Source of the DNA: Thermoanaerobaculia bacterium
Lineage (GTDB): Bacteria > Acidobacteriota > Thermoanaerobaculia > Multivoradales > JAIOJS01
Direction of reading: 5' to 3'
Assembly: GCA_030429235.1 (NCBI GenBank)
Contig: JAUIDB010000003.1
Location: 124,001-188,000 of the forward strand
Length of the DNA: 64,000 bases
Positions 45,710-55,788 of this stretch are shown in pieces. Positions within the stretch are counted from its first letter, which is position 1. Every line of letters begins with the position of its first letter. Under the pieces are notes generated by a model. It worked only from the letters and a program-made list of their open reading frames with translations. It was not told where the DNA came from and ran no database searches. Both the position numbers and the translations under genes were made by a program.

Positions 45710-46488
45710 CAGGCAGCCCTCCTTGCGGCCTGCTTGTCGATGTACGGGCCGAAACCCTCGGGGCCGAGCCAGAACTGTACGAGATAGGAGACCCCACGGC
45801 TGGTGATGGTCGCCCCTGAGAGCCCGTCGACCTTGTAGGGCTCCTCGGCCGGCGGACCGGCGCGACCCTTCACCACTTCGATCTCCGGCTCCCCGTCGGG
45901 ACCGAAGATCTTGCGGCCCGGCCACAGCGACTTCCAACCCGGGTTGTCGACTTCGCCCCCGAGACCCGGGGTCTCTTTGTGTTCGTAGAAGGTGATCCCG
46001 GCCACGGTTTGAAGGTCTGCTTCCAGGGCGATGAAACCCCGCAGGGTCGACCACAGCCCCTTGCCCTCGACCGGGAAGATGTACTTTTCGACCTCGCCGC
46101 CGTCACCCTTGACCAGATAGACGAGGGCGAGGTTGGGAACCCGCTGCACGCGAGCGAGGTTGTCCGGGGCCTTTTCGCTGGTGGCTGGATCCTGGGCGGC
46201 TTTCTTCTGGTCGAACGTGGCGGGATCCACATCGTCGCGGATCTCTCCGGTGGCGAGCTCGATCACCTGGGCTTCGATGGTGGCAAAACGCTCCTCGATC
46301 ACCTCGGGCGGCAGCTGCTCGCCGGGCATCCGCATGCCCGCCGCTTCGAGTACGTTGCTCTGCTTGTCGAGCAGGACGTTGACATCCTGCCGTTCCTTGA
46401 GCTGTACCGCCGAGCCCGACACGACCACCGCGCACACGATGCACACCAGGGTGGCGAAGAGCAGGGTGTATCCGACGCTACGCTGCAT
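45709..46488 (-). CDS. nqrC: Na+-translocating NADH:quinone reductase subunit C
   Basis: A 259-residue subunit with one N-terminal TM helix ([18 protein letters not shown]) and a periplasmic FMN-binding domain. The flavin attachment site is [15 protein letters not shown] near 223-237, where the Thr of SGAT is esterified to FMN by ApbE. Other family segments are [19 protein letters not shown] and [15 protein letters not shown]. It overlaps nqrB by 11 nt. Confidence 0.96.
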
Positions 46489-47692
46489 AACGGGCCATCC
46501 TTCGCTTGATGTTGGACTGGACCACGAAGTAGTCGATGGTGGGTGCGAAGACGTTCATCAGGAGAATCGCCAGCATCATCCCTTCGGGGTAGGCCGGGTT
46601 GATGATCCGGATCAGCACCACGAGCATACCGATCATCACTCCGTAGACCCAGCGCCCACGACTGGAGTGCGGAGCCGATACCGGGTCCGTGGCCATGAAC
46701 GCCATACCGAAGGCCCAGCCTCCGAGCAGGAACTGCCACCAGAACGGGACCCCGAAGAAGGGGTTGGTCGGAGAGTCGATCACGTTGAGCAGCAGTCCCA
46801 TGGCGGCGGTTCCCAGCGTGACGCCGGCCATGATGCGCCAAGAACCCACGCGGGTGACGATGAGCAGCAGGGCTCCCGCCAGGCAGGCCAGGGTCGAAGT
46901 CTCTCCCATCGAGCCGGGAATCAGACCGATGAAGGCGTCCCACCAGTCCAGGGTTAGCGCCTCGGTGCCAGTCTCGGCGGCGCGAGCCAGCCAGGTAGCG
47001 CCGCTCACGCCGTCGGCTCGGGTCACGGCGGCGGTCCAGACCTTGTCGCCAGAGATTTCGGCCGGGTAGGCGAAGAAGAGGAACGCGCGCGCCGTCAGGG
47101 CCGGGTTGAGGATGTTCATCCCCGTACCACCGAAGATCTCCTTGCCGACCACCACGCCGAAGCTGATGCCGACGGCCACCTGCCAGAGGGGGATCGTCGG
47201 AGGAAGGATCAGCGGAAAGAGCATCCCGGTAACGAAGAATCCCTCGTTGACCTCGTGGTTCCGGACGGTCGCGAAGAGGACCTCCCAGAGCCCTCCCACC
47301 GCGAAGCAAACCACCAGCACCGGCACGTAGTACAGGGCACCGTGGACCAGACAGGCCAGCAGGTTCGTCGGATCGAGGGCGAAGCCGAGCTTGGCCATGG
47401 CCGCCGTCTGCCAGGTCTCGAGGGCCGGGGCCCCCAGTGAAACCGCCAGATTCGCCTGGTACCCGGTGTTGTACATCGCCATGTAGATGCACCCGAGCAG
47501 CGAGACCACCACGGTCATCATGACCCGCTTGAGGTCCATGCCGTCGCGGACGTGCGACGGCCCGTCGGTCACTTCCCCCGGTGTGTAGAGAAAGGTGTCC
47601 TGCGCCTCCCAGAGGGGGTAAAGCTTCTCGAGTTTGCCCCCCTTCTCGAACATCGGCGCCTGCTTGTCCAGCAGTTGACGGAGAAACTTCAT
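46478..47692 (-). CDS. nqrB: Na+-translocating NADH:quinone reductase subunit B
   Basis: A 404-residue integral subunit with about ten TM helices. The covalent FMN site is [13 protein letters not shown] near 222-235. Other features are [20 protein letters not shown] near 50, [20 protein letters not shown] near 180, and [20 protein letters not shown] near 338. NqrB carries the last flavins of the chain and the Na+ path and contacts quinone. It overlaps nqrA by the TGATG junction. Confidence 0.97.
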
Positions 47693-49071
47693 CAGCTCTC
47701 CTTCTCGATGATGGTGAGCACTTCGCGAAGGCAGCGCCCGAAGTCATTCTTTCCCGTGTCGACGAACGTGCACAGGGCGACGTCCTCCTCCTCGAGTTCC
47801 AACACGCCCAGCTTCTCGGCGGTTTCGACGTCTCGCATGAGCAAGGAGCGCAGCAGCGGCGTGGCCATGATGTCGAAGGCCATCACCCGTTCGTAGGCCC
47901 CAAGCGGCATGATCGCCCGGTGGGAGCCGTACGAGGTGGTCGTCATGTCGAACTTCTTACCCGGTAGCAGGCGCGAGGCGAAGAGGTTGGTGACCGAAAA
48001 CCGATCGGTACCGGGAGCCAACCACCCCAGGAACCGCCGCTCGCGATCCTCCGCCAACAGAGAAATCTGCTGGTGGTAGCGACCGAGGAAGCCGTGGACC
48101 TCCCCCATCGCTCGGCGGCCGGCGAGGACGGAACCAGAGACCGCCCGGAGGTCCTCGGCGTTCGACTCTCCCGCGACCAGTTCGTCGACCGAGGCCCCTA
48201 GGCGGGTCCTGAGCAGGCGAGGCCGCTCGGCCGCGGGGCCGGACAGGGCTACGACCCGATCGACGTGCAGAGTGCCGGAGGCGAACAGGTGTCCCACCGC
48301 GATCACGTCCTGGAACCCGATGTGCCATACGAAACGCTCGCGACTCACCGGCGCCAGCGTGTGGATGTGGAAACCGACGGTGCCCGACGGATGCACCCCC
48401 GAGAAACGCTCGTGGCGGATCCGCGCGTCGTTCGGAATCGCCACGTCGGTATCGGCATCGGTACACACGAACACGTCACCCTCGGTGAGGGTCGACAGCA
48501 CCGTCAGCCCGAGTTGGAAGCGCTCCGACTCACCGGCCATCACGGCGCCGACATCGAGCGCGAGCGGGCTCGAGTCCACCGCGGTCACGAAGATCGAATG
48601 GGGCGTGGTCTCGGGATCGGCCACGCGGCCGAACGGGCGAGCCCGCAGCGCGGTCCACAGCCCCGATTCCAGAAGCAGTGCACGCGCCTCGTCGCGCTTG
48701 AGCTGCGAACTCGGCGTGTTCCGGTAGGCCTTGAAGCTCACCGAGTCCGGACCGCCAGCGCGGCCTTCGATCTCGCTACGGCTGGTTTCGATCACCAGCG
48801 ACTGGAAGGCTCGGCGTGCCCCGCGGTGGATCGCCACCACTCGCCCGGCGGCGGGTGCCGTGTACCGAACCCCTGGAGTCTTCTTGTCGTCAAAGAGAAG
48901 CTGCCCTCGTCGCACGTCTTCGCCGACCTTGACGTGCATCGTCGGTCGCATGCCGACGTAGTCGGCGGCCAGGATCGCAACCCGGCGCGGTGGTGCCGCG
49001 CGCTCGATCTCCTGGACCGGTTCTCCGGTGATGGGCAGCCGGAGTCCTCGCTTGGTCTTGTACAAACCCAT
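47692..49071 (-). CDS. nqrA: Na+-translocating NADH:quinone reductase subunit A
   Basis: 459 residues from the ATG at 49071. The frame continues upstream to 49371, but the family start ([18 protein letters not shown]) fixes the site. It contains the barrel-sandwich segment [20 protein letters not shown] (about 65), [30 protein letters not shown] (about 250) and [15 protein letters not shown]-like sequence near 400. NqrA is the cytoplasmic peripheral subunit. It is the first gene of the eight-gene nqrABCDEF-apbE-nqrM operon. The leader has a 10-bp direct repeat (GTTCTGCTTC/T) just before the ATG. Confidence 0.96.
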
Positions 49072-49213: not shown

Positions 49214-49756
49214 ATGTTCGACTTGGATATCCCCCGAGCCCGCGACACGATGGCCGCCGCCGCGTTCACCGTCTCTCCGGACACCGATCTCCTGGCTGCG
49301 ATCGACCAGCTGGTGACGCGCAAGGCTGCGGCGGTGCCGGTCGTCGATGGGGAGCGCTGCCTCCTCGGCATGTTGACCGAGAAGGACTGTCTGCGCCTGA
49401 TCTCCGCGGCTGCCTTCGATCAACCGCGCATCGGACCGGTCCGCGACTTCATGTCGAAGGTTTCGGTCCAGCTCGAGCCGACGATGGATCTCTTCCGAGT
49501 CGCCGAACTGTTTCTGAGTACCAACTTCCCGATGCTGCCAGTGGTCGAGGACGGCCGGCTCGTCGGATGCATCACCCGCCAACAGATGCTGGTGGCGGTC
49601 CAAGCCGTCGGCCGGCAACTCGACGCTCAGCAGCAGCGGATCGAGACCAACGCCTCCCAATCCACTTCGCGACCCCGCTCGATCGAGCAGATGCAACAGA
49701 CTGCCGCCCGGCTCTCCCCCGGACAGCTCGCGAGCAAGCTGGGGCGACGTTCCTGA
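49214..49756 (+). CDS. CBS-domain pair protein
   Basis: A 180-residue soluble protein with two CBS motifs: about 10-68 (TMAAAAFTVSPDTDLLAAID, VPVVDGERCLLGMLTEKD) and about 78-135 (DFMSKVSVQLEPTMDLFRVA, LPVVEDGRLVGCITRQQML). A short hydrophilic tail follows. CBS pairs bind adenine nucleotides or S-adenosyl ligands and gate partner proteins. No catalytic domain is attached, so it is a stand-alone energy or ligand sensor. It diverges from nqr and is 31 nt upstream of the LOG-like gene. Confidence 0.9.
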   Translation: MFDLDIPRARDTMAAAAFTVSPDTDLLAAIDQLVTRKAAAVPVVDGERCLLGMLTEKDCLRLISAAAFDQPRIGPVRDFMSKVSVQLEPTMDLFRVAELFLSTNFPMLPVVEDGRLVGCITRQQMLVAVQAVGRQLDAQQQRIETNASQSTSRPRSIEQMQQTAARLSPGQLASKLGRRS

Positions 49757-49787: not shown

Positions 49788-50333
49788 GTGGGTCGGCGCC
49801 CCATCATCGGTGTCATGGGTTCGGGACAACGACCGCACCCAGTCCGAGCGGCCGCTTTGGGTCGCTGGCTCGCCACGCGTGGATTCCACCTGCTCACTGG
49901 CGGTGGGCGCGGTGTCATGTCCAGCGTCAGCCGCGCGTTCTACGAGGTCGCCGAGCGCGATGGGCTCGTGCTGGGGGTGCTTCCCGCCGACTCCGAGCGG
50001 ACCGACACCTCGAGACCGGGTTACCCCAACCCCTGGGTCGAAGTCCCCATCCGAACCCACCTCTCCCTGAGTGGCGAGCGGGGAGCCGAAGCTGGTTCGA
50101 GAAACCCGATCAACGTTCTCAGCTCCGATGTCGTCGTGGCACTTCCCGGCAGCGCTGGCACCTCCAGTGAGGTCCGGCTCGCCGTCCGCTACGGGAAACC
50201 CGTGGTCTGTTTTCTGCGGTCACGAGACGAGATCCCGGAACTGCCGCCCGAGGTACCGGTCGAGTCGGAACTGGGAGGCGTCCAACGCTTCGTGCTCGCT
50301 CACTTGCCGCCGCCACCAGCCGACGCCGGCTGA
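49788..50333 (+). CDS. LOG/TIGR00725-type (molybdenum cofactor carrier-like) protein
   Basis: A 181-residue protein from a GTG. The Rossmann-like fold has IGVMGSGQRPHPVRAAALG, then LLTGGGRGVMSSVSRAFYEV (about 36-55), and VVVALPGSAGTSSEVRLAV (about 120-138) in place of the LOG motif PGGxGTxxE; this variant is nearer the TIGR00725/MoCo carrier branch. LOG proteins hydrolyse nucleoside monophosphates; the carrier branch binds molybdenum cofactor. The Glu after GTSS is kept. Which substrate applies is unclear. Confidence 0.8.
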   Translation: MGRRPIIGVMGSGQRPHPVRAAALGRWLATRGFHLLTGGGRGVMSSVSRAFYEVAERDGLVLGVLPADSERTDTSRPGYPNPWVEVPIRTHLSLSGERGAEAGSRNPINVLSSDVVVALPGSAGTSSEVRLAVRYGKPVVCFLRSRDEIPELPPEVPVESELGGVQRFVLAHLPPPPADAG

Positions 50334-50349
50334 GCCACTACGGGAGACC

Positions 50350-50568
50350 TCAGGAGTCCAAGCTGCAGGCGGGTCGAAAGCCGAGAGATCGCAGGACCAT
50401 CGCCGCCGGGCAGAAGCCGGTGAACGCCTGTTGGAAGAGGTTCACCCCTACGAAGACCGTGAACCAGATGAAACCGGGGTGGACGAAAACCGTCAACACC
50501 ACGGAGAGGAGAACCATCAATCCGGCAAAGGCCTCGACTGCGTGTTCCAAGGACATGCTGCGCTGCAT
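50350..50568 (-). CDS. DUF2892 family membrane protein
   Basis: 72 residues from the ATG at 50568, preceded by AAAGGA. It begins MQRSMSLEHAVEAFAGLMVL, has two TM helices and the segment LFQQAFTGFCPAAMVLRSLG. This is the DUF2892 (YgaP C-terminal-like) family with its FTGFCP motif. Family members are often coded beside rhodanese or sulfide-oxidising genes and beside ArsR-type persulfide sensors. It is the last gene of the RND operon, 20 nt after the outer-membrane gene, which ties the operon to sulfur metabolism. Confidence 0.85.
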   Translation of the reverse strand: MQRSMSLEHAVEAFAGLMVLLSVVLTVFVHPGFIWFTVFVGVNLFQQAFTGFCPAAMVLRSLGFRPACSLDS

Positions 50569-50588
50569 CGATTCGTTCCTTTCTGTGT

Positions 50589-51887
50589 TCAGTAGCTGAA
50601 CCGAAGCCGAAGGTAGGCGTTGGAAGCGTCCTCCAGCTGACCGAAGAAGGTGAAGGGGTCCTGCCCGCCGAGAACACTGGCCCCCAGCGTCAACGACCAC
50701 TGATCGTTGTGTCGATAGTGCAAACTGGGCCGGAAGTAGTAGTCCTGATCGCTCGGAGAGTAGAAGGTAAAGAGAGACACCGTGTAGCGGCCCAGGCTCG
50801 AGCGATAGGTCAACCGGTTGGTCAAGAGGTGCCGTACCTCGTCGGGGTCGAACCTCTGGTCGCGCGAGTTCCGACGCAGCGCGCGGTAATCGAGCGTCCA
50901 GTCGAGGGCGTACTGCAGACCGACTGTGACGCCCTTCCGCGCCTCCCACTCGTATCCCACGAGAGTGCGCAACTGATCGTTGGGTACCAGCGGATCGTCA
51001 CCGTCCCGGTCGTCGATCGAATCGTAGTAGGCCAACTCGGCGTGAAGCACTCCGACCCCGGCCGACTGTCGCAGACTCGCCCCCCACGAGTTCAGCGGGG
51101 CAAAGGTCGGGAGCAGACTCGTCGACGCAGTCTCCAACAGCGCCGAAGGACCCTTGAAGAATCCGTGGTAGCCGTAGAGCGCGAGTTCGCGCCCGCGGAC
51201 CGTACGGAACAGCCGGAGCGCGAACTCGGCCTGCTCGAAGGTGCGAGCCGGTTCGATCGCTGCAGCCGGAGGCCGCGGGGCGACGAGGCGCCCAGCCGGG
51301 CCGGAGAAGAAGGAGAACCGCTCTCCCGTCAGGTAGACATCCGGCGTGAAGACCGGAGTCCAGACCAGATCCAGGTTGACCTTGCCGAGGTAGGCGGTCA
51401 AGCGAACCGAGTCCGCCGGGGACTTGAGGTACTCGTCGTCGCGCCCCGCGAAGAAGGAGACGAAGTCCTTGGGGAAGAGATCGTTCAGAAACACCAGGTC
51501 TCCGGTGCCCCAGGTCTGGACCTGGCGGCCTAGCCTCAACTCGACCTTCGGCCCCAGCGAGGTGGAAAAACTGAGCTCTCGCACCGCGAGCCGCCACTCC
51601 TCCTCGACGGCGTCGTAGGCGAGGTCTCCGCTCCAGGCAATCGCACGGTCGCCGAACTGCTTCTCGGTCTCGCTGCGAACTGTCAGCTCGGCCAACGTCT
51701 CGCCATCCTCGAGCCTCGGATCCGCGTCCCAGCGGGTTCCGAACCCGGCCTCGACGAAGCCGGTCCAAACCAATCCCTCATCCTGGTCGCCCCAGTCGTC
51801 CTCCCAGAGATCCTCCTGAGCGGTGAGGACCGATGGTGCGAGCAGGAACCAGCTCGCCAGGAGCACGAGAAGAACGCGGTACTTCAC
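50589..51887 (-). CDS. Outer-membrane beta-barrel protein (DUF1302-like)
   Basis: A 432-residue protein with a signal peptide (VLLVLLASWFLLAPSVLTAQ) and a mature part of alternating amphipathic strands ending in YLRLRFSY, a classic barrel C-terminus with a terminal aromatic. Segments such as ELRLGRQVQTWGTGDLVFLN near 120 and KDFVSFFAGRDDEYLKSPAD resemble DUF1302 barrels found with MMPL-type RND exporters. It is 9 nt after the LolA-like gene. It is probably the outer-membrane part of the export route. The substrate is unknown. Confidence 0.8.
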   Translation of the reverse strand: MKYRVLLVLLASWFLLAPSVLTAQEDLWEDDWGDQDEGLVWTGFVEAGFGTRWDADPRLEDGETLAELTVRSETEKQFGDRAIAWSGDLAYDAVEEEWRLAVRELSFSTSLGPKVELRLGRQVQTWGTGDLVFLNDLFPKDFVSFFAGRDDEYLKSPADSVRLTAYLGKVNLDLVWTPVFTPDVYLTGERFSFFSGPAGRLVAPRPPAAAIEPARTFEQAEFALRLFRTVRGRELALYGYHGFFKGPSALLETASTSLLPTFAPLNSWGASLRQSAGVGVLHAELAYYDSIDDRDGDDPLVPNDQLRTLVGYEWEARKGVTVGLQYALDWTLDYRALRRNSRDQRFDPDEVRHLLTNRLTYRSSLGRYTVSLFTFYSPSDQDYYFRPSLHYRHNDQWSLTLGASVLGGQDPFTFFGQLEDASNAYLRLRFSY

Positions 51888-51896
51888 GGTCGCTCC

Positions 51897-52712
51897 TCAG
51901 TCCGTGGGACGCTGCAGCCATTGGCGCGGAGGGTTGCGAAGCGACCTCTCGGTGAATACCTCGGCCGGCAACCCCAGGTCGTACTTGATGTAGCGAAACT
52001 GCATGTCGGTCTGGCCGCCACTGAGCAGATCCGAGACCCGGCTGGCCGTCACGGTCGGGTTGCCGTCGATCTTTTCGACGGCGAGCACCTCGACCCGGCG
52101 GTAGATCTGACCCGCTTCGTTGTGGTACTCGATCTTCGTCGGCAGGAAGGTCGATCGATCGATCCACGTCACGTAGCGGTGAAACTCGACGTCAGCATCC
52201 TCCCGCGGCTCGTGTTCTAGAACGTAGTGGGTCTCGGTCGCCTCGACGAACCGGTGAAGGTCCTCGCTGGGACTCCGACCGGAGACGTCCTCGTAGAAGT
52301 AGTGGGCACCGACGAAGCTGGTTCGTTTGTCTCCGGCCGAGATGCGTTTCACCAGATCCAATCCGGGCAGATACAGCCAACGGTCATCATCTCGGTCGGC
52401 ATGCTTGTGCACCAAGAAGACGGTTCCCCGCACGTCGGAGGGCTGGCTGAAGGACACGAGGAACTTCTGATCCCCACCGTCCTCGACGTCGCTCCGCAAG
52501 ACCGTGAACTGCCGGCGCTGCTGGCGCCCCTGAGCGTCGGCGATGATCATTCGCACCTCCGACCGACCATCCGCACCCGCGTAGTAGGCGGCGAGATTGG
52601 CTCGGGCGACGATCGCGTCGGCGTCCTCGAGGTTCGACTGGGCGAGCCCCGAACTCCCGGTACCGACAAGGAAGAGAACTCCTAGGGTGAGAAGGATTCG
52701 TTGACGGGTCAT
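51897..52712 (-). CDS. LolA-like outer-membrane lipoprotein-sorting protein
   Basis: 271 residues from the ATG at 52712, which overlaps the RND stop (ATGA). The signal peptide is ILLTLGVLFLVGTGSSGLAQ. The mature protein shows the LolA/LolB-type fold found in DUF4292-like proteins: SEVRMIIADAQGRQQRRQFT, FLVSFSQPSDVRGTVFLV, DRWLYLPGLDLVKRISAGDK, FYEDVSGRSPSEDL and KIEYHNEAGQIYRRVE. Such proteins act as periplasmic lipid or lipoprotein carriers and often pair with MMPL exporters. Between an RND pump and a barrel, it is the likely periplasmic shuttle. Confidence 0.85.
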   Translation of the reverse strand: MTRQRILLTLGVLFLVGTGSSGLAQSNLEDADAIVARANLAAYYAGADGRSEVRMIIADAQGRQQRRQFTVLRSDVEDGGDQKFLVSFSQPSDVRGTVFLVHKHADRDDDRWLYLPGLDLVKRISAGDKRTSFVGAHYFYEDVSGRSPSEDLHRFVEATETHYVLEHEPREDADVEFHRYVTWIDRSTFLPTKIEYHNEAGQIYRRVEVLAVEKIDGNPTVTASRVSDLLSGGQTDMQFRYIKYDLGLPAEVFTERSLRNPPRQWLQRPTD

Positions 52713-55294
52713 GACGACACCTCCTGATTCAGTTGGGCCAAGGGCAGGTCGGGGAACAGCCACGGACCGGCCGCGGTCACCAGCGCCGGCAGCAGCAACA
52801 GTGTGGTGAGCCCCGAGATCGCCATGATCGCCGCCATGAACGAACCGACGGTGATGTAGGGCACCAGGGGGGCGAAGAAGAGCGGAGTGAATCCGATCGC
52901 GATGACGATGGCGTTCCTGGCGATCGCTCGCGCCGGCTCCTCGAACAGAGCCTCGAGTGCGATGCCTTGGGAACCCGACTCCCGCAGGAGGGAACGGGTC
53001 CGGGCGATGAAGTGGATGGCGAAGTCGACCGACAGCCCCAGCGTCAAGGCGGAGAGCACGGCGATCGGCATGTCGTAGTCCTTGCCGATCCAACCGATCG
53101 CGCCGTAGACCCCGACGATGGTCAAGGACAGGGGCACCATGGCGAGTAAGCCCAAACGCCAGCTGCGAAACAGGAGGGTCATGATCACCAGCACCGCCAC
53201 GAAGGCACCGAGCAGGCTCTTGAGCATGCCCTGGACCATCGACTGCTGCCAGACGACGTTGATGTAGGACTTGCCGGCCCAGGCCAACTCCAGACCGGCG
53301 GGCAGCGGCTGCGCCTCGAGTTCGCGATCGAGAGCTTGGAGGACCTGGCTCATGTCCTGGTTGTCGCCGCTCTTCAGCTGCAACCAGATCGCGGTCGAGG
53401 CGAAGTCCGGTGTCACCATGTGCCAGAGGTCCTGCGGCCGGTGGGACGACTGATACTGCAGGAGCGATTGGGCCACTGCCGGAGCCGTGTCCGGAACCCG
53501 GTACTCCTCGGCACGACCTCCCCGCAGTTCTCGGTGCACGACCTTGACGATGTCGGGCAGGGCATTGGTCTTACCGACCAGCCCGGTGGTGGCCAGCGCA
53601 GCCTGCAGCGATTCGATCGTCCGCAGACTCTCGGGACGCTGAAAGTAGCGGCCGGTACTCTGCGCCGACTCGGTCAGAGCGAGCAGTCGGGCCAGGCGAT
53701 CCTGGTCCTCGGGGTCCTCGACGTCGAACAGCGCGTCGTCGATCACCGCGATGAGGTCGCCATACCAGGCATCGAGGTCCTCGTTCGATAGCGCCGGGGC
53801 CGTCGCGAGTCGCGGCTCGATCAGCGCCGCGACCTCCGGTGCCAGCTCGCTCAGAGCGGCCTCGGCCGCCCGCTGGAACTCGGCCCGGGCCTCGTCGTTG
53901 CGAAACGTCAGCACCAGAAACGCGTCGTAGGTCCCCGCGAAGTGCTGGTTGAGGACCCGATCCGCCACCCGGATCGGATGGTTCTCCTTGAACCAGCGCA
54001 CCGGATTGTCGTTGATCTGAATCCGAGCCACTCCCAGAGCGCTGACGACAGCGAGGAGCAGGGCCACGCCGATGATCGGCTTGGCGTGGACCACAGCCGT
54101 GCGCCCCAGTCGCCGAAGGAGCCGCGCCAGGAGGCTCTCGCTCTCCAGCACTTCGCCCCGAGCTGCGAGTGCTTCCAGTGATGATGGAGACATGCGAACC
54201 ACGTAGGCAGGGATCAGGGTGATCGTCAACAGGAAGGCGACCAGAATTCCGAAGGCGACGAAGGCACCGAACACCTGCACCGGTGGAATAGGCGTGAGGA
54301 GCAACGAGAGGAAACCCAGGGCCGAGGTCGCGGAGGTAAAGAGCATCGGCGTGAACAACTCCTCGACGACGTTGCGAATCACTCGTCGCACGTCAGCCCC
54401 CGGACGGTAGCGATCGGCGAATTCCGACATGATGTGGACCGAGTCCACTACCGCGATCGGCATGAGGAAGATCGGGATCATCGAACTCATGATGTGCACC
54501 GAGAAACCGAGCGCGGTCAGTAGGCCCATGCTCGCGACGACGGTCGCCACGGCCACCAGCATCGGCACGGTGACGAGTTGCACGCTGCGAAAGAAGTAGA
54601 ACATCAAGAGGAAGATCATCAGACCGGCCAACGGCGCCGAGATCCCCATCTGGACGAACATATCGTGTCCGAAGGTATCCTCGGCCACCGGCAGGCCAGT
54701 GATATGGAAGTCGTCGTCCGAGTCCAGACCGGCCGCCAGGTCCCGGATCGCCAGGGAGAGGGGATGGCTCAGGTCCTTGCTGACGATGGGAACGTAGATG
54801 GCAGCCGCCCTACCGTCCCCCGAGACCAGGGTGTCCCGTAGGAGGGGAAGCCGGTCGACCTTGGCCCGCAGCTCCGCCGCTTGGTCCAGGGTCACTGGAG
54901 CTTCCTGCATCATCCACTCGAAACGGAGGACTCCCTCCCCCTCCTGCGAGATGTTGTCCGCCTGGGCCAGCGACATGAGGTCGGGCGGCACCACTCCTTC
55001 CAGCGCCAGAATGGAGTGACTGAGGCGATGGAGCGCCGCGAGCGACCGGGGGTTGTAGATTCCATTCGGATCCCGTTCGTTGACCACCCCGACCACGATG
55101 GCATCGTGGAGGGAGAACCGCCTCTCCACCTCGTTGTGGAAGAGGCGGTCGATCTGGGTCGACGGCAGCATGTTCTCGGGGTCGGTGTCGATCTGGGTCC
55201 GCCCCAGAAAGGCGCCGAGCGCCAGTACCGACAGCAAAACGATCCCATAGACGGCCCGGGGGCGACGGATGGAGAATTCGGTCAAGGTGGTCAT
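52709..55294 (-). CDS. MMPL/HpnN-type RND exporter
   Basis: An 861-residue RND protein with two repeats of one TM helix, a large periplasmic loop and five TM helices. TM1 is near 18-32 (GIVLLSVLALGAFLG). The first sterol-sensing-type bundle is about 215-360 (PLAGLMIFLLMFYFFRSVQL), with IPIFLMPIAVVDSVHIMSEF; the second is about 700-850, with LTLGLSVDFAIHFIARTRS. No tripartite AcrB signature is seen; the arrangement matches MMPL/HpnN lipid exporters driven by the proton gradient. It is the first gene of a four-gene operon that diverges from the ArsR gene and has a near-consensus promoter. Confidence 0.93.
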   Translation of the reverse strand: MTTLTEFSIRRPRAVYGIVLLSVLALGAFLGRTQIDTDPENMLPSTQIDRLFHNEVERRFSLHDAIVVGVVNERDPNGIYNPRSLAALHRLSHSILALEGVVPPDLMSLAQADNISQEGEGVLRFEWMMQEAPVTLDQAAELRAKVDRLPLLRDTLVSGDGRAAAIYVPIVSKDLSHPLSLAIRDLAAGLDSDDDFHITGLPVAEDTFGHDMFVQMGISAPLAGLMIFLLMFYFFRSVQLVTVPMLVAVATVVASMGLLTALGFSVHIMSSMIPIFLMPIAVVDSVHIMSEFADRYRPGADVRRVIRNVVEELFTPMLFTSATSALGFLSLLLTPIPPVQVFGAFVAFGILVAFLLTITLIPAYVVRMSPSSLEALAARGEVLESESLLARLLRRLGRTAVVHAKPIIGVALLLAVVSALGVARIQINDNPVRWFKENHPIRVADRVLNQHFAGTYDAFLVLTFRNDEARAEFQRAAEAALSELAPEVAALIEPRLATAPALSNEDLDAWYGDLIAVIDDALFDVEDPEDQDRLARLLALTESAQSTGRYFQRPESLRTIESLQAALATTGLVGKTNALPDIVKVVHRELRGGRAEEYRVPDTAPAVAQSLLQYQSSHRPQDLWHMVTPDFASTAIWLQLKSGDNQDMSQVLQALDRELEAQPLPAGLELAWAGKSYINVVWQQSMVQGMLKSLLGAFVAVLVIMTLLFRSWRLGLLAMVPLSLTIVGVYGAIGWIGKDYDMPIAVLSALTLGLSVDFAIHFIARTRSLLRESGSQGIALEALFEEPARAIARNAIVIAIGFTPLFFAPLVPYITVGSFMAAIMAISGLTTLLLLPALVTAAGPWLFPDLPLAQLNQEVSS

Positions 55295-55337: not shown

Positions 55338-55365
55338 AGTATATCACTTTTCACTAATTTAGCAA
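55338..55365 (-). promoter_or_regulatory. Promoter of the RND-LolA-barrel-DUF2892 operon
   Basis: On the minus strand TTGCTA (55365-55360) and TATACT (55343-55338) are 16 nt apart. The start point would be near 55331, about 36 nt before the RND ATG. The -35 lies inside the first 19-bp repeat (55354-55372), so a protein bound there would block RNA polymerase. Confidence 0.7.
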
Positions 55366-55402
55366 CAGCTATTCAATTGACTCCTAATTTAGAATCTGCT
55401 AT
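55354..55402. promoter_or_regulatory. Twin 19-bp direct repeats, probable ArsR operators
   Basis: Two copies of CTAATTTAG-N5-GCTAT lie at 55354-55372 and 55384-55402, exactly 30 bp apart, in an AT-rich island of a GC-rich region. The 5-nt centres differ (CAACA and AATCT) while the outer 14 positions are identical, the usual pattern for a protein-binding site. One copy covers the -35 of the RND operon; the other covers the spacer and -10 of arsR. This suggests one repressor controlling both directions. Confidence 0.65.
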
Positions 55403-55405
55403 ATT
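55377..55405 (+). promoter_or_regulatory. Promoter of the ArsR-family regulator gene
   Basis: TTGACT (55377-55382) and TATATT (55400-55405) are separated by 17 nt, close to the sigma-70 consensus and unusual for this GC-rich genome. Transcription would start near 55412, about 38 nt before the ATG at 55450. The second operator repeat covers the spacer and the first bases of the -10, so autorepression is expected. Confidence 0.75.
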
Positions 55406-55449: not shown

Positions 55450-55788
55450 ATGGCAGAATACGACCGACCACACGCCGATCAGCCCTCGCCCCCGCTGACC
55501 GAGATGCGGCGTCATGCGGCGAGCGCGGCCGGACTGATGAAGACCCTCGGCAACGAGAGTCGACTGTTGATCCTTTGTGCCCTCGCGGAAGGGGAACGCT
55601 CGGTGGGCGAACTCAACGAGGTCGTGCCGCTAAGCCAGTCGGCCCTCTCGCAGCAGCTGGCCCGGCTCCGACGGGACAAACTCGTCACGACCCGCCGAGA
55701 GTCACAGAGTATCTACTACTCGCTCGCCCCCGGCCCGGTCGACGAGGTGCTCCAACTTCTCCACTCGATCTACTGCGCGCCGGGCTAG
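55450..55788 (+). CDS. ArsR-family regulator, SqrR/BigR/YgaV-like persulfide sensor
   Basis: 112 residues from the ATG at 55450; a TTG at 55405 overlaps the -10 and is rejected. The winged-helix core includes LGNESRLLILCALAEGERS, the recognition helix SQSALSQQLARLRR (about 62-75) and the wing TTRRESQSIYYSL. Only two Cys occur, C43 and C109. In SqrR (C41/C107) and BigR (C42/C108) the same two positions, also 66 residues apart, form a tetrasulfide link on reaction with persulfides and release DNA. The arsenic (alpha3 CxC) and SmtB zinc ligands are absent. It probably represses itself and the divergent RND operon. Confidence 0.88.
   Translation: MAEYDRPHADQPSPPLTEMRRHAASAAGLMKTLGNESRLLILCALAEGERSVGELNEVVPLSQSALSQQLARLRRDKLVTTRRESQSIYYSLAPGPVDEVLQLLHSIYCAPG

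Follow-up and report, generated by a model that had tools for sequence, protein, structure and literature searches.

The DNA examined in this work is a window of 64,000 nucleotides (positions 124,001 to 188,000 of contig JAUIDB010000003.1) from a Thermoanaerobaculia bacterium of the phylum Acidobacteriota, whose assembly, GCA_030429235.1, comprises 4.85 Mb in 92 contigs. On the minus strand of the window, at positions 50350–55294, lies a cassette of four genes encoding, in order, an MMPL-type RND inner-membrane transporter, a LolA-like periplasmic carrier, a predicted outer-membrane β-barrel and a DUF2892 protein; the gene for an ArsR-family repressor diverges from it, and we interpret the whole as a transport operon under the predicted control of a persulfide sensor and linked, in its relatives, to sulfide oxidation. 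The start of the LolA-like gene (51897..52712; 271 residues, no cysteine; PF17131, E=2e-52) overlaps the stop of the MMPL gene (52709..55294; 861 residues, no cysteine; Pfam MMPL PF03176, E=2e-31) by 4 bp (ATGA), the barrel gene begins with GTG 9 bp further on (50589..51887; approximately 18 strands), and the DUF2892 (YgaP-like TM) gene, which starts with ATG and whose small membrane-bound product carries a CP motif, closes the cassette (50350 to approximately 50568; PF11127, E=9e-12). With spacings of −4, 9 and ~20 bases and a ribosome-site-like sequence before the gene starts, this is a tight operon, and these coordinates and Pfam matches confirm the preliminary description of the locus, which had reported four genes spaced in this way.

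The MMPL domain scored 109.5 bits against a Pfam cut-off of 20.5, and the AlphaFold2 model of the protein (predicted local distance difference test, pLDDT, of 88.1) found its best Foldseek matches in MmpL5/MmpL4, HpnN and the NPC1 family, with TM-scores of 0.66/0.73 for MmpL5. The transmembrane aspartates D284 and D757 are conserved among relatives and are candidates for the proton relay. By its domains, its RND fold and these aspartates the protein belongs to the MMPL-type RND superfamily, and its scores lie under the curated cut-offs for HpnN (100.7 versus 751.85 bits), BstA (18.4 versus 1400) and HAE3 (180 versus 351.9). It thus shares a predicted fold and proton-relay aspartates with the MmpL, HpnN and BstA carriers of hydrophobes, but differs from them in having LolA-like and barrel partners, in being nearly cysteine-free across the cassette family and in its predicted sulfur control. 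A tripartite RND efflux pump of the AcrAB-TolC type was considered and rejected: the operon has neither a membrane-fusion protein nor a TolC-type channel, and the partners of the MMPL protein in it are the LolA-like protein and the porin-like barrel.

The LolA-like protein has solved relatives in 4z48, 9tp6 and 3bk5 (E of approximately 1e-26 to 1e-25). The third protein had been described as a DUF1302-like barrel; the barrel itself is predicted by a confident AlphaFold2 model (pLDDT 90.8, 18 strands counted) whose Foldseek matches are general porins, MOMP and AlgE (TM-scores of approximately 0.4–0.55), whereas the DUF1302 match is sub-threshold (18.8 bits, with a Pfam cut-off of 23.2) and no stretch passes alone. 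A PDB sequence search with the barrel gave no useful match. In the DUF2892 protein one cysteine, that of the CP motif, is invariant across all 41 relatives.

A scan of GTDB genomes for homologues returned 80 loci at 47–80% identity, nearly all of them gammaproteobacterial and mostly marine, and in nearly all the MMPL, LolA-like and barrel genes remain together. Culturable carriers include Kangiella aquimarina DSM 16071, Microbulbifer marinus and Ferrimonas. The gene order is therefore kept in dozens of genomes, and the possibility raised earlier that it might be unique to this one no longer stands.

The ArsR protein and its predicted operator

The divergent regulator gene (55450..55788, plus strand; HTH_5) encodes a protein of 112 residues whose closest counterparts of known structure are HlyU (E=2e-25), followed by SqrR (the 6o8l series), BigR (3pqj) and YgaV (3cuo). 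It holds exactly two cysteines, Cys43 and Cys109, which align with the HlyU pair in α2 and α5, and both are kept in 56 of the 57 complete cassette-linked ArsR homologues; the remaining ArsR proteins of the genome are only distantly similar to it (at most 31 bits). Judged by its sequence, the protein is a member of the persulfide-sensor group, which we do not call BigR because its score against the BigR equivalog model (NCBIfam NF040642), 86.6 bits, falls below the cut-off of 155.

The 4.85 Mb genome has exactly two copies of the palindrome CTAAWTTAG. Both stand in the 155-bp intergenic region between arsR and the MMPL gene, and no copy is expected from shuffles of the window. The two copies are 30 bp apart and overlap both predicted promoters, each of which is a consensus match only. 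One copy, CTAATTTAG, at 55384..55392, falls in the spacer between the hexamers of the promoter predicted for arsR (TTGACT-17-TATATT, 55377..55405, plus strand, 10/12 matches), and the other, also CTAATTTAG, at 55354..55362, lies over the −35 element of the promoter predicted for the four-gene operon (TTGCTA-16-TATACT, 55338..55365, minus strand, 9/12 matches). The hlyO DNA that was used to measure binding by Vibrio cholerae HlyU contains CTAAATTAG, the same 9-mer (PMC10509353). Across the 80 homologous loci the motif is enriched approximately 180-fold, with 47 sites in the 31 kb made up of the 250 bp preceding the MMPL or ArsR genes compared with 10 in 1.2 Mb, while 11 other permuted palindromes gave 0 to 2 sites each in the same upstream regions. 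Many Woeseiaceae-type loci carry arrays of related sites phased at 15 bp, and in several loci with ArsR downstream (L076, L081, L083, L089 and L097) sites are also found directly upstream of MMPL. We propose CTAAWTTAG as the predicted operator of the ArsR protein; together with the conserved cysteine pair, it strengthens the assignment to a persulfide sensor that had previously been made by inference.

Sulfide-oxidation genes and cysteine content in cassette relatives

A gene for sulfide:quinone oxidoreductase (SQR) is near 26 of the 82 cassette loci, and in many Woeseiaceae it is the gene between ArsR and MMPL. These SQR relatives match the structure of the Acidithiobacillus ferrooxidans enzyme with E=2e-149 and have conserved cysteines at positions 128, 160 and 354, which we take to correspond to its catalytic cysteines 128, 160 and 356. 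Other relatives have the cassette with persulfide dioxygenase (PDO), rhodanese and DUF302. We compared the 58 cassette loci with enough flanking sequence with 20 loci of MMPL paralogs in those genomes (identity no higher than 34%): an ArsR gene or sulfur enzyme was nearby in 49/58 and 0/20 respectively (Fisher p=5e-12) and a sulfur enzyme (SQR, PDO or rhodanese) in 36/58 and 0/20 (p=4e-7), p-values that overstate independence since the members of the cassette family are related. The barrel and DUF2892 genes were also absent at all 20 paralogous loci, and a LolA-like gene was present at about half of them. A second, evenly drawn sample with deeper branches (45–51% identity) repeated the linkage, with SQR beside L160, L161, L162, L168 and L170 and ArsR beside other loci; a rhodanese match at L168 was given no weight, as the part of it that was scanned yielded a VTT domain and nothing else.

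The position of ArsR is variable across the cassette loci, being divergent, downstream or codirectional. At locus L033, from a relative at the level of the order, an ArsR–rhodanese fusion (L033:445-1119, G046:C273) lies on the upstream side of a diverged cassette and a type-III-like SQR on the downstream side, and a CxxCH-containing protein is encoded between the fusion and the cassette. Because position and orientation vary across the tree, the association between ArsR and the cassette has probably been rearranged or rebuilt several times and not inherited once in fixed form. Two further neighbours were observed: in L035 (7129-7518) and 13 other loci of the Woeseiaceae type a DUF302 gene adjoins the sensor gene and is possibly part of the sulfide response, and in the Ferrimonas cassettes L086, L087, L095, L096 and L102 the gene directly upstream, approximately 1.4 kb before MMPL and on the same strand, encodes a FadL-family transporter of hydrophobes in the outer membrane (PF03349, E=8e-127 in L095).

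The operon in the window contains no SQR, PDO or rhodanese gene, as had been stated earlier; in many of the relatives this does not hold, SQR, PDO, rhodanese and DUF302 genes being found beside the cassette. Of the original interpretation, the part that described an operon predicted to be under a persulfide sensor is retained, whereas the part that described a separate response free of such enzymes is not, and the operon is better regarded as a module for transport within the SQR/PDO/rhodanese system of sulfide oxidation.

The cassette MMPL proteins are also poor in cysteine, with 0.54 cysteines per 1000 residues compared with 4.5 in MMPL paralogs of the same genomes (p=2e-9, overstating independence because the test covers one clade of related members); the figure for all genes of the cassette loci is 7.3. 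The median number per cassette MMPL protein is zero, with none at all in 50/80, and the LolA-like protein is cysteine-free in 66/79 cases and the barrel in 58/76, it being common for periplasmic and outer-membrane proteins to lack cysteine. We read this depletion, from the counts given here, as a probable adaptation to contact with reactive sulfur.

Origin of the cassette and neighbouring genes

In a tree of MMPL proteins, the window and a relative of the same genus nest within a gammaproteobacterial clade of the Woeseiaceae type, which has 14 rows and a support of 100, and the cassette therefore probably reached this Acidobacteriota lineage by horizontal transfer from gammaproteobacteria. Its prevalence is low, at 16/369 sampled gammaproteobacterial genomes and 3/396 from the phylum of the window (E≤1e-100). 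One gammaproteobacterial genome (G385) has two cassettes, L163 and L170, one of which adjoins SQR and rhodanese genes. Contamination of the assembly was judged an unlikely source, because the contig that bears the cassette is 223 kb long and a homologous cassette, at 80% identity, is present in another genome of the genus. The other genes in the vicinity appear to be unrelated: a SLOG cluster 4 family protein (49788-50333), convergent with the cassette, a CBS-pair protein (49214-49756) beside it and, past these and on the same strand, nqrA and nqrB of the Na+-translocating NADH:quinone reductase (46478-49047).

Proposed function and alternative explanations

The operon structure, the sensor type, the predicted operator, the proximity of SQR, PDO and rhodanese genes to the cassette in relatives and the cysteine depletion provide the sequence evidence for a persulfide-derepressed trans-envelope transporter that serves sulfide oxidation and sulfane-sulfur homeostasis and most likely exports zero-valent sulfur, a reading to which we give slightly less than an even chance. 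The more specific proposal of a dedicated persulfide-induced exporter of zero-valent sulfur across the envelope, with an RND pump, a LolA-like sulfur carrier and a barrel, is more tentative. From this evidence we infer persulfide induction, the cargo, the direction of export and the role of DUF2892. In such a system the two-cysteine ArsR protein would bind the CTAAWTTAG sites that overlap the arsR and operon promoters; as persulfides or polysulfides built up, its cysteine pair would be bridged, the repressor would leave the DNA and the operon would be expressed. The proton-driven MMPL/RND protein would then draw a hydrophobic cargo out of the inner membrane and pass it to the LolA-like carrier, with the barrel releasing it at the outer membrane, and DUF2892, with its invariant cysteine, may accept or donate sulfur within the membrane. 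The likeliest cargo would be the product of SQR at the inner membrane, zero-valent sulfur as S8 or polysulfanes, which is favoured because it is hydrophobic and best fits the SQR linkage; by their models, the MmpL/HpnN/NPC1 folds and the LolA-like carrier would fit such a cargo, and the FadL-family neighbour in Ferrimonas is counted on the same side.

Several observations weigh against the export of zero-valent sulfur. We found no close SQR in the genome of the window, where the sole such sulfur enzyme found is a PDO-like protein fused to two rhodanese domains (L126:332-1741, G000:C11), on a contig other than that of ArsR and with no exact CTAAWTTAG site; because a close SQR is lacking, the sulfur in this organism would have to come from something else, e.g. 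the breakdown of cysteine or polysulfide from outside. In addition, 9/58 of the full-flank loci, one of them in a Thioalkalivibrio, show no link to ArsR or sulfur enzymes, the p-values for linkage and for cysteine content overstate independence, the family members being related, and the depletion is weaker in the deeper branches, where most MMPL open reading frames have 1–7 cysteines. The MmpL, HpnN and NPC1 relatives, moreover, carry lipids.

This last point leads to the main alternative, a transporter for protection of the envelope: under the same regulation, a rise in reactive sulfur would lead the cassette to bring some hydrophobe to the outer membrane, such as a hopanoid-like, wax-like or repair lipid. 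It draws on the closest folds (MmpL5/4/3, HpnN and NPC1), on the weak NCBIfam match to HpnN and on the FadL-family neighbour in Ferrimonas. However, the HpnN match is far under its 751.85-bit cut-off, SQR, PDO and rhodanese recur among the adjacent genes, with no lipid-synthesis gene recognized among neighbour clusters that are mostly unannotated, and avoidance of cysteine would be unexpected in a lipid pump, so that we consider a lipid cargo rather unlikely. Less probable still is the uptake of a hydrophobic substrate, with sulfur control secondary, or an import of zero-valent sulfur. The model here is TOL_3187/TOL_3188 of Thalassolituus, which resemble the cassette in their parts list (MMPL, LolA-like domain and porin-like barrel) and of which TOL_3187 is up 42-fold and TOL_3188 expressed only on n-C28 (PMC6304351); the direction of transport by the cassette, moreover, is itself putative. 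In contrast with the cassette, this system is induced by an alkane (C28) and is described with no ArsR, SQR or DUF2892, and the paralogous MMPL–LolA loci lack the barrel, ArsR and sulfur genes, so an MMPL–LolA pair alone does not predict sulfur linkage. A role in lipoprotein sorting, in which the LolA-like protein and MMPL would supply the outer membrane with lipoproteins or with the barrel, is suggested by the PF17131 name and the LolA fold and is highly improbable, as MMPL is not LolCDE, there are no Lol genes among the identified recurrent neighbours and the same LolA-like family is found with roughly every second one of the unrelated MMPL paralogs. Finally, although the protein belongs to the ArsR superfamily and RND pumps often export metals, metal or arsenic sensing and a metal-resistance operon were rejected as barely credible given the best PDB matches to persulfide sensors, the presence of only two cysteines, at persulfide-group positions and hence with no CxC metal site, the hlyO core in the operator and the SQR, PDO and rhodanese neighbours in relatives.

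Among known systems, the SqrR/BigR/HlyU/YgaV repressors and their SQR–PDO–rhodanese regulons share with the cassette the two sensor cysteines, the winged helix, the hlyO core CTAAATTAG and, in relatives, the gene linkage, but differ in that the sole predicted target in the window besides arsR is a transport operon without an enzyme. The zero-valent sulfur importer YedE1E2 moves the cargo proposed here and occurs with PDO, but it is confined to the inner membrane, needs cysteines and does not export (PMC10812762). The link between persulfide sensors and RND pumps has not gone entirely unnoticed: Li and colleagues (2025) mention, in one sentence, RND efflux pumps across the cytoplasmic membrane near two-cysteine ArsR sensors (PMC12423496), the same general association, although the main text of that paper describes no LolA-like/barrel/DUF2892 cassette, operator or control comparison. 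Our search of the open literature, which took in few subscription papers and no supplements, found no described system matching the cassette and no RND sulfur exporter; within that scope the earlier remark that no such described system was known holds for a dedicated description.

Some bacteria oxidize sulfide to insoluble sulfur that ends outside the cell. In Chlorobaculum the transfer of sulfur to extracellular globules has been stated to proceed by an unknown mechanism, and vesicles have been proposed (PMC12285230). The cassette offers a concrete candidate gene set for this crossing of the envelope, because gene order connects it with SQR, and its predicted operator with a persulfide sensor. 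If the cargo were a lipid, the operon would point to a remodelling of the outer membrane when the cell meets reactive sulfur, of which we know of no description. If the cassette is indeed an exporter of zero-valent sulfur, it would provide a protein route by which the sulfur made by SQR could leave a Gram-negative cell.

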